IMG/VR virus record: IMGVR_UViG_3300027782_000054
Coordinates: 31,175 to 95,174 of that record
Reading direction: 5' to 3' (one strand)
DNA from: a virus
Length of the DNA: 64,000 nucleotides
Positions within the stretch are counted from its first letter, which is position 1. Each line of letters starts with the position of its first letter. The position numbers and the translations under genes were made by a program. The notes under the pieces are model-generated. The model saw nothing but the letters and a program-made list of their open reading frames with translations. It did not search any database and was not told the origin of the DNA. Shown here in pieces: positions 928-46,313 of this stretch.

Positions 928-1359
928 GTGTTAGAACAGAAGCAGCTATCTCTATTTGGTGATAAGCCAAAGTATAGAATCGTATCCACTGCTGAAAAAC
1001 GCAGTCTACTTGAAGAGGCAGGAGAGTCTTGGCCTGTCTGCGATTGTTGCGGAATAGAAAAGCAATGGAACGCACAAGCTTATAAAAAAGCTGGAGGTTC
1101 TTGGGCATTACGTTGCTCAGTATTAGCCTTGGTTCATAGAAATGCAAAAACCCCTGGCACTTATCGTTATAATACAGGTCATGGTATAGGTGAACCTGGG
1201 GCGAAGGCAAGGGCAAAAAAAAGAAGACTGTCCAATACTCCTGGCACTTATGCGTACAATCAAAGAATAAAGGTTATAGATCAAAGAATGCAGAAATACA
1301 TAGATGGTACTCCTGAAAATATTGAATATCTAGAAAGGGTTAAATCAACATGGATCTAA
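928..1359 (+). CDS. small zinc-binding protein with N-terminal sliding-clamp motif
   Basis: 143 residues from a GTG at 928; the in-frame TAG of the preceding gene at 901 excludes a much earlier start. Residues 5-9 read QLSLF, which matches the bacterial beta-clamp-binding consensus QL(S/D)LF exactly and sits in a presumably flexible N-terminus. A Cys-rich patch follows (CDCCG at about residues 38-42, another Cys near 63), then a basic C-terminal half with repeated NTPGTYAYN / KTPGTYRYN-like phrases. I do not recognise the family. Clamp motif plus zinc patch plus basic tail suggests a DNA-associated protein that rides on a replication clamp; that is inference. The stop overlaps the next gene by 10 bases, indicating translational coupling. 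Confidence 0.75.
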   Translation: MLEQKQLSLFGDKPKYRIVSTAEKRSLLEEAGESWPVCDCCGIEKQWNAQAYKKAGGSWALRCSVLALVHRNAKTPGTYRYNTGHGIGEPGAKARAKKRRLSNTPGTYAYNQRIKVIDQRMQKYIDGTPENIEYLERVKSTWI

Positions 1360-2336: not shown

Positions 2337-2900
2337 ATGCTAATCGGAATGACAGGAGGGCTTAGGGTTGGTAAGGATACAGCCTTTAAGCTTATTCAGG
2401 AAGAGCATCCGAGTGTAAAAAGAATTGCCTTTGCTGATAAAATGAAAGAGTCTGCTGCAGCGATACTAGATATCTCTGTGGCAGAACTCAATCATCTTAA
2501 GTCACATCCTAAGGTTAAGCTGTCTCTATATGATCCTCTCAGCACAGTCTCTGTGTCTCTCTCTATGAGACAGTTTCTTCAGAGATATGGAACAGAGGCT
2601 CATCGTGACATCTTTGGTAATAATTTCTGGGTAGACATTAGTCTACCCAGAGACTTTAGTCATGACAATAATATCGTCATCGTCACAGATGTTCGTTTCG
2701 AAGAAGAAATCAAAAGGATCCATGAACTTGATGGATATATCATAAAGATCTCAAGAGATAATAGGCATAGCGTAGATAGTCATATCTCAGAACAGCAGAT
2801 AGATGATTATGATTTTGCCATCGAAAACAATTCATCTCTTCTTGAATACAAGAAGGGTCTTTTAGATATTATGGGGTTAATTAATGATAATCCAAGTTGA
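2337..2900 (+). CDS. deoxynucleoside monophosphate kinase
   Basis: 187 residues, the usual size for phage dNMP kinases (T4 gp1 type). The P-loop is near the N-terminus (GLRVGKDT, residues 8-15), followed by a FADKMKE acceptor-lid helix and the family hallmark LQRYGTEAHRDIFG...FWVD in the middle. A late VTDVRFEEE strand corresponds to the Walker-B/adenine side. The reaction is phosphoryl transfer from ATP to dTMP, dGMP or modified dCMP to make dNDPs for replication. It sits among HAD nucleotidase, GMP reductase and ThyX, a nucleotide-supply operon. The end overlaps the next gene by 17 bases. Confidence 0.9.
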   Translation: MLIGMTGGLRVGKDTAFKLIQEEHPSVKRIAFADKMKESAAAILDISVAELNHLKSHPKVKLSLYDPLSTVSVSLSMRQFLQRYGTEAHRDIFGNNFWVDISLPRDFSHDNNIVIVTDVRFEEEIKRIHELDGYIIKISRDNRHSVDSHISEQQIDDYDFAIENNSSLLEYKKGLLDIMGLINDNPS

Positions 2901-5386: not shown

Positions 5387-5605
5387 ATGGCTGATGTATA
5401 TGAAATTTGTTTAAATTGTCGTGAAGATGATTGCGATTTATGTGAAGACTCCTGGGTAAGCCCAAATGGTGATGAGTATTTTTGCATTTGTGATTGCAAT
5501 AAATCAGATGACGATGGTATTCTAATCGATGTTCAATCAGATACTTGGAATAAATATCGTGATGCATATGAAGATCTAGATGACGATAAATATTACGATT
5601 CATGA
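5387..5605 (+). CDS. small acidic cysteine-rich protein
   Basis: 72 residues with a GGAG Shine-Dalgarno. Seven cysteines occur in CLNC, CDLC and CICDC arrangements among many Asp/Glu residues, consistent with a small zinc-binding fold. A TATAAT at 5373-5378 lies just upstream but I see no convincing -35. The stop overlaps the ThyX start (ATGA), so it is co-translated with thyX. Function unknown. Confidence 0.75.
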   Translation: MADVYEICLNCREDDCDLCEDSWVSPNGDEYFCICDCNKSDDDGILIDVQSDTWNKYRDAYEDLDDDKYYDS

Positions 5606-6219
5606 TTAATACAGTAGAACTCATCGGAACATATGGTGATGACTTTACGATTGCTCAGTCAGCATGGACTAGTACTAGCCGTGACTTGTCTGAGGAACGT
5701 AAGAACAGGGTGGGTGGCCTTCTCAGTATGCTTGCTAGGGAGGGCCACCATACTCCCTTTGAGAAGAGTATGCTTCATTTCTATGTTGTGTGCGATACAG
5801 CAAGTCATATTCACTTCCTTAAGCATCGCGTTGGTGTCAGTATTAATGCTGAGTCAGCACGTTACAAGGAATTGAATGATGATAAATTCTACGTTCCTGA
5901 GGATTGGCCCGATCATCTCAAAGCCTTCATGAAGAGAAAGGCTAATTATCTATATGATGACTATCACTATCTCATCAATGAGCTAGAGGAATTGGGGTAC
6001 GATAGGAAGAGAGCTAAAGAGTCTGCTCGTTTTATTCTTCCCTATGCAAATCAGCTAGGTCTTGATGTTAGTTTTAACATGAGGTCATTCATGCATTTTC
6101 AGGGTCTTCGCAATAAACCTGATGCACAAGTTGAAATCCGTGAGATTGCGGATCAAATGCTTCAGCTAGTCAAAGACACAGGAAAGTTTGATCTTACCTT
6201 AAAAGCTTTTGAATATTAG
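5602..6219 (+). CDS. thyX: flavin-dependent thymidylate synthase ThyX
   Basis: 205 residues, within the family range. The ThyX signature (RHR-X7/8-S) is present at residues 74-88 as KHRVGVSINAESARY, with Lys for the first Arg and eight residues before the Ser. An N-terminal HHTPFEK matches the substrate/FAD segment. The enzyme makes dTMP from dUMP using methylenetetrahydrofolate, FAD and NADPH. It is the last gene of the left nucleotide operon and complements the thymidine kinase at 45698 and the deaminase at 56218. Confidence 0.95.
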   Translation: MINTVELIGTYGDDFTIAQSAWTSTSRDLSEERKNRVGGLLSMLAREGHHTPFEKSMLHFYVVCDTASHIHFLKHRVGVSINAESARYKELNDDKFYVPEDWPDHLKAFMKRKANYLYDDYHYLINELEELGYDRKRAKESARFILPYANQLGLDVSFNMRSFMHFQGLRNKPDAQVEIREIADQMLQLVKDTGKFDLTLKAFEY

Positions 6220-45607: not shown

Positions 45608-45711
45608 GCAAGAGAAGCGTTGCTATAGTTGGGTTTGCATCCCTATCTTCTCTTATCTTATCTATCATTTTTATATTTAAAAAGGAGAGAATCAAGAATG
45701 GGAACCATTGA
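45604..45711 (+). CDS. single-span membrane peptide
   Basis: 35 residues: MSKRS, a hydrophobic span of about 20 residues (VAIVGFASLSSLILSIIFIF) and a basic tail KKERIKNGNH. ATGA overlap upstream, and its end overlaps the thymidine kinase start by 14 bases; the kinase Shine-Dalgarno lies inside it. Too short for a family call, but the overlap pattern supports translation. Confidence 0.5.
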   Translation: MSKRSVAIVGFASLSSLILSIIFIFKKERIKNGNH

Positions 45712-46294
45712 GGTAATTTGCGGTCCAATGTATAGTGGTAAGAGTGAAGAGCTTATCCGTCGTATTAGGCGTGTAGAGATTGCTGGATATGAGCCACTCG
45801 TTGTGAAGCCCATCATTGATAGTCGCTACTCATATACTGACGTAGTTAGTCACTCAGGTCTTTCAAGGGAAGCTAGTGTAGTTGAGAAGTCTTCTGACAT
45901 TATCAATAAACTTTATGGTGTTGAAGAAGTAGTCGCCATTGATGAAGTGCAGTTTTTTGATGAAGGTATCATTGATGTTATCAAGTATCTCCGTGGTGAG
46001 AAAGTTCGTGTAATCATCGCAGGACTAGATACAGATTACCGTGGAGAGCCGTTCGGTCAAATGGGTCATATCCTTGCTATTGCAGATAAGGTAGATAAGC
46101 TACAAGCTATCTGTCACCATTGTAGAGGGTTCGATGCAACCATGACTCAGCGCCTTGTAGATGGAGAGCCAGCAGAATGGGATGCAGAGACTATCGTAGT
46201 CGGAGGTAGGGAATCCTATGAGGCTCGCTGTAGGGGATGCTGGGAGGCTCCTGTGAAGACAGGGGATCATCCAGGGCAACTAACCCTATTTTAG
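45698..46294 (+). CDS. tdk: thymidine kinase with C-terminal clamp-binding motif
   Basis: 198 residues from the ATG at 45698, chosen because AAGGAGAG precedes it; an earlier in-frame start would add a non-homologous leader. Type II thymidine kinase: P-loop GPMYSGKS (residues 9-16), IDEVQFF Walker B, GLDTDYRGEPFG lasso and a zinc site made by CHHC and CRGC. It phosphorylates thymidine to dTMP. The very last residues are GQLTLF: QLTLF fits the bacterial sliding-clamp-binding consensus and is placed like that of E. coli Pol II (C-terminal QLGLF). It may dock dTMP synthesis on the replisome. Confidence 0.93.
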   Translation: MGTIEVICGPMYSGKSEELIRRIRRVEIAGYEPLVVKPIIDSRYSYTDVVSHSGLSREASVVEKSSDIINKLYGVEEVVAIDEVQFFDEGIIDVIKYLRGEKVRVIIAGLDTDYRGEPFGQMGHILAIADKVDKLQAICHHCRGFDATMTQRLVDGEPAEWDAETIVVGGRESYEARCRGCWEAPVKTGDHPGQLTLF

Positions 46295-46304
46295 GCTAAT
46301 TCTT

Positions 46305-46313
46305 TGCTATAAT
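46305..46313 (+). promoter_or_regulatory. extended -10 promoter TGCTATAAT
   Basis: TG-C-TATAAT directly after the thymidine kinase stop; the ATG at 46321 is seven bases downstream (AGGTACA between), so leaderless or nearly so. No clear -35. Confidence 0.7.

Follow-up and report, generated by a model that had tools for sequence, protein, structure and literature searches.

A phage type II thymidine kinase ending in a pentapeptide of the sliding-clamp-binding type

The thymidine kinase (TK) encoded in the studied window (the whole analyzed stretch of 64,000 nucleotides, part of a virus record of 95,174 bases) combines an ordinary type II core with the pentapeptide QLTLF as its last five residues. 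We favor, at roughly even confidence, the explanation that this phage TK docks on the host sliding clamp DnaN through its C-terminus. The points for docking are the exact match to the clamp-binding consensus, the exposed position of the peptide, and the low expectation of such an end (3.5e-4 per genome of this size), to which sequence comparisons add TK tails elsewhere that look like a similar peptide and a second phage protein with a QLSLF motif. The points against it are that the tail is a single case and that the tails of the Sericytochromatia-like TKs lack the phenylalanine at position 5.

The TK gene (45698..46294, plus strand) is a single open frame of 198 codons translated as MGTIEVICGPMYSGKSEE...YEARCRGCWEAPVKTGDHPGQLTLF*, with the C-terminal end reading ...CRGCWEAPVKTGDHPGQLTLF, a TAG stop codon (46292-46294, plus strand), and a Shine-Dalgarno-like AAGGAG (45682..45687, plus strand) upstream of its ATG. 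The Pfam TK profile (PF00265) matches the product over its full length (176/176 positions, E=1.4e-50); the sequence-only reading of a complete type II TK ending in QLTLF is confirmed. The P-loop GPMYSGKS, the DEVQFF motif, and the zinc ligands C139, C142, C178, and C181 are all present. In an alignment of 20 TK sequences, residues G9, G14, K15, D82, E83, C139, C142, and C178 are invariant, and C181 is conserved in at least 90%. The AlphaFold model built from 20 sequences has a mean pLDDT of 89.8 and superimposes on the Bacillus cereus TK (2ja1, 55% identity) with a TM-score of 0.90. By domain match, residues, and fold, the core of the phage TK is thus that of an ordinary type II enzyme. Enzymes of this class phosphorylate thymidine, are inhibited by dTTP, and are usually tetramers; from the class we infer a probable tetrameric state for the phage TK.

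The zinc domain ends at C181 and is followed by the linker W182-G193 (WEAPVKTGDHPG; 46238..46276, plus strand, including C181), which leads directly to the QLTLF codons (residues 194-198; 46277..46291, plus strand) at the exact C-terminus. In the AlphaFold model, residues 190-197 have pLDDT values below 50, and therefore QLTLF is predicted to lie on a disordered tail, where the last five residues would be accessible. By sequence, the peptide fits the β-clamp-binding consensus QL[SD]LF / QxxLF. The C-terminal motifs of E. coli Pol II and Pol IV bind the clamp pocket. Position 3 of the clamp-binding motif is tolerant (PMC11139829), and the last five residues of the B. subtilis PolC are QLSLF and apparently essential (PMC12309361). 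The QLSLF peptide binds B. subtilis DnaN at 3.8 µM, a single short motif being capable of only micromolar affinity, and the QLSLPL motif of E. coli Hda is a tight clamp binder (PMC12309361). Given the consensus fit, the tolerance of position 3, and the PolC precedent, the earlier identification of QLTLF as a bacterial clamp-type motif holds good. Shaping of the TK tail by an overlapping promoter was considered and rejected: the last two codons place CCTATT at the -35 distance, with no match to TTGACA, and no promoter is listed there. The extended -10 element of the next gene (TGCTATAAT, 46305-46313) sits 3' of the TK stop codon.

An alternative that we consider possible but doubtful is that QLTLF arose by chance in a fast-evolving, non-functional tail. 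A chance estimate from the phage's own composition (117 ORFs, 30,018 residues), made after the fact, gives 0.09 expected occurrences of QL[SDTGNE]LF anywhere in the phage ORFs and 0.00035 at any of their C-termini. Among the 1155 other non-redundant ORFs of the fetched loci, none has a C-terminal QLxLF, and the QL[SDT]LF motif is found in five ORFs of these loci, four of them in DinB loci that were fetched on purpose and one in Bacillus phage G. The C-terminal QLTLF is thus not a chance match within one genome, although this number needs a discount for the many windows of the scan; a whole scan takes in so many proteins that a single C-terminal match could arise by chance. The free variation of bacterial TK tails in length and sequence, the absence of a tail in the sister phage, and the single known instance speak for a chance origin. 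It is opposed by the expectation and the ORF count given above, by the perfect placement of the peptide on a disordered linker, and by the conservation of QLx[LF]-type tails in one clade of bacterial TKs, which is described below.

The closest viral TK, 58% identical, belongs to a syntenic sister phage (L001) that has TK neighbors and other genes in common with the studied phage (thymidylate synthase, IMP dehydrogenase, and others); this enzyme stops at the zinc domain and has no tail. The QLxLF end is absent from all 80 viral TKs found by alignment, the sister enzyme among them. When the C-terminal 60 residues of the TK were used as a query, just short spurious matches were obtained in viral contigs, and no phage TK alignment in the search with the C-terminal region extended to the end of the tail. 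We also searched viral records for a DNA pattern consisting of the TK zinc motif, 15-45 bases, and a QLxLF-stop; this pattern reaches only YE[AP]RC-like spellings of the last zinc motif and possibly missed records very near the window. It matches the window once and none of 100 shuffled sequences, and no other viral TK matched. The sole other viral match is a DNA methyltransferase (L343) with a C-terminal QLxLF (...NYNKQLKLF). Alignment with other phage TKs had been proposed earlier as a check, with drift away from the consensus counting against the clamp motif. The related phage TKs have no tail, and hence neither conservation nor drift is seen in the group: the motif is a single case, missing from the sister enzyme and from every other viral TK examined, and is not conserved among orthologs. 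In the sister phage, an ORF of 67 aa (L341:7469-7672, minus strand) has QLALF as its exact end.

Among about 200 bacterial TKs examined, none ends in QLxLF, and a slightly different form of the DNA pattern matched none of 399 genomes of one Bacillota phylum (that of G008). Three of the 80 ordinary best-hit bacterial TKs carry a loose QLx[LMIFV], and none of these 80 ends in QLxLF. One of the three comes from the record named 'Cyanobacteria bacterium UBA8530' (L065), the one named record from which the class Sericytochromatia is inferred. The tail contains QLx[LF] in eight of the 12 Sericytochromatia-like TKs (QLSLPT, QLPLPG, QLSFPS, QLLLLA, QLPLLS in two cases, QLPLSP, and QLALQY). These eight TKs (L180, L182, L184, L186, and L188-L191) form one supported clade (99/98) in which 8/8 members carry the motif, so it has a single origin and has been kept while the residues on either side changed. 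With P, L, S, or Q in place of F at position 5, these tails do not have the best form of the motif; some of them resemble the first five residues only of the E. coli Hda QLSLPL. The motifs QLSLF, QLGLF, QLDLF, and QLTLF occur in DinB proteins from this class, with QLTLF located in the C-terminal region (L254). Inheritance of the phage tail from a Sericytochromatia-like TK was considered and set aside: the alignment hints at it (PVRPGVTQLSLP / PVKTGDHPGQLTLF), yet the phage TK falls in an unresolved fork of the tree. Gastranaerophilales-like relatives with small genomes from the same phylum (L192-L209) have another conserved TK tail with a K[LV]L[NQS]F-like end.

A second family, from Bacillota and unrelated to the Sericytochromatia-like clade, shows a conserved NKNQV[STE][FL] tail in 16 of 27 TKs (L307-L309, L314-L318, L320-L322, L326, L328, and L330-L332), individual members having QVSLFKKG or QVTLL-stop. 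These sequence patterns increase the prior probability that a peptide of the kind found in replication proteins can occur on a TK tail. A broader proposal, that clamp-binding tails were gained separately by the phage TK, the Sericytochromatia-like clade, and the Bacillota family, and that clamp-docked dTMP synthesis would be a recurring device, appears unlikely to us.

The phage encodes a nearly complete dTTP route. A deoxynucleotide monophosphate kinase of the same nucleotide pathway as TK (2337..2900, plus strand; PF21448, E=3e-19), an IMP dehydrogenase / GMP reductase-family protein common to the sister phage (4349..5353, plus strand), and a ThyX-like thymidylate synthase as a second source of dTMP (5602..6219, plus strand; phrog_85, E=1e-38) are located within the window; the motif scan found no clamp motif in the thymidylate synthase. 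TK thus supplies this route with a salvage branch. Beyond the window, genes of the record specify a Pol III α subunit (phrog_405, E=3e-262), DnaB-like and DnaC-like proteins, a primase, a UvsX/RecA-like recombinase, a RuvC-like resolvase, and a ribonucleotide reductase (RNR). A MoxR-type AAA ATPase adjoining a DUF2201 (VWA-like) protein (L091:5801-8417, minus strand) is also common to the sister phage.

The sequence-only reading had left the partner of the TK as either a host or a phage clamp. The phage clamp was rejected as the partner: the middle domain of the β clamp (PF02767), the only clamp domain searched for, has no match in the phage record, which is a contig and possibly incomplete, whereas 10 of 14 control genomes were positive; clamps of the T4 type fall outside this profile search. 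The phage Pol III α (1025 aa, L092:821-3898) has no consensus Q-type clamp motif, the internal site of bacterial DnaE included. Since neither a phage β clamp nor a clamp motif in the phage Pol III α was detected, the TK motif, provided that it binds a clamp, would most simply have the host DnaN as its partner.

The second canonical clamp-binding-type motif of the phage, detected by the motif scan, is an N-terminal QLSLF (residues 6-10) in an orphan, Cys-containing protein of 143 aa (928..1359, plus strand; MLEQKQLSLFGDKP...), for which no Pfam, PHROG, or phage relative was found. In L093, a contig that matches at 97.3% identity across 1093 bases, QLSLF is kept while the nearby R17 and I18 are replaced by K and S. 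The gene has a leaderless-like arrangement, its GTG start being located 7 bases 3' of TTGACA-N17-TAGTAT. At five gene starts (928, 7947, 37341, 46321, and 52587), a TATAAT-like -10 element lies just 12-13 bases 5' of the start codon and a Shine-Dalgarno sequence is missing, as in leaderless mRNAs. Near the TK of Bacillus phage G, a 158-aa protein with an N-terminal QLDLF (L004:3390-3866, plus strand) is encoded directly after an exonuclease-like gene.

A second alternative, quite improbable to us, is that the multimeric TK, with its several C-terminal motifs, and the QLSLF protein occupy the host DnaN, compete with the host polymerases, and slow host replication, the phage polymerase being spared because it has no clamp motif. 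It agrees with the absence of a Q-type motif from the phage Pol III α, including its usual internal place, with the lack of a detected phage β-clamp domain, and with the occurrence of canonical motifs on two different phage proteins; moreover, phage-encoded clamp competitors have been described for S. aureus phages. Yet it would be odd for an inhibitor to be carried by an enzyme, one short motif can bind with only micromolar affinity (PMC12309361), and the phage polymerase may use a clamp motif of an unrecognized kind. The present data fit both the feeding of the fork and the blocking of the host clamp.

We regard as very improbable a third explanation, in which the tail is a short linear motif of a different type, for instance one that signals degradation or binds intramolecularly, and resembles a clamp motif by accident: C-terminal hydrophobic ends can act as protease signals, and the Bacillota family tail is mostly NKNQV[ST]F followed by charged residues (QVSFED) and is not a clamp motif of the canonical form, which would allow for motifs of other kinds on TK tails, but QLTLF is far nearer to the clamp consensus than to known bacterial C-terminal degrons.

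According to the favored explanation of docking on the host DnaN, a normal, catalytically complete type II TK would have acquired a short, disordered extension at its C-terminus, with QLTLF as the last residues. During infection, each TK subunit would fit this peptide into the clamp's hydrophobic pocket on the host DnaN, with the usual tetramer of the class giving avidity for the clamp, and docking would place the dTMP-making enzyme on replicating DNA. A local supply of dTMP at the fork would be the purpose, which is the least certain part of the proposal. The binding between TK and DnaN is itself plausible, as suggested by one sequence. It has been debated for decades, on indirect evidence, whether enzymes that make DNA precursors are seated at the fork; if docking is true, the phage TK would be a nucleotide enzyme with an explicit, removable five-residue clamp hook, permitting a simple mutant test of fork seating.

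Compared with the bacterial type II TKs of B. cereus/B. anthracis (2ja1/2j9r) and C. acetobutylicum (1xx6), the phage TK has the same core, P-loop, DEVQFF motif, zinc ligands, and fold, whereas the bacterial TKs examined end at or just past the zinc domain, with an unrelated tail or none and with no QLxLF end. The Sericytochromatia-like TKs are similar to the phage TK in having QLx[LF] at a similar distance past the final zinc ligand, in most cases on a linker that contains Pro, and differ from it in the fifth position and in the extra residues beyond the motif. With the clamp binders that use a C-terminal motif (PolC, Pol II, and Pol IV), the phage TK shares a consensus-type pentapeptide as the last residues of a flexible tail; however, these proteins are DNA polymerases, and the phage TK, a putative binder, is a nucleoside kinase with no DNA-binding role. 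The concept that enzymes producing dNTPs are kept at the replisome is shared with the E. coli RNR/replication hyperstructure and the T4 dNTP synthetase complex, and precedents of this kind, including a reported interaction of RNR with DnaN, are cited in PMC2826317. For these two assemblies no clamp pentapeptide is named on a nucleotide enzyme in the literature examined, whereas the motif of the phage TK is explicit and removable. In the open-access literature, we found no report that pairs a TK with a clamp-binding motif, or a bacterial or phage TK with a sliding clamp. Both the enzyme and the peptide are known, and within the open-access literature searched it is plausibly their combination that is new.
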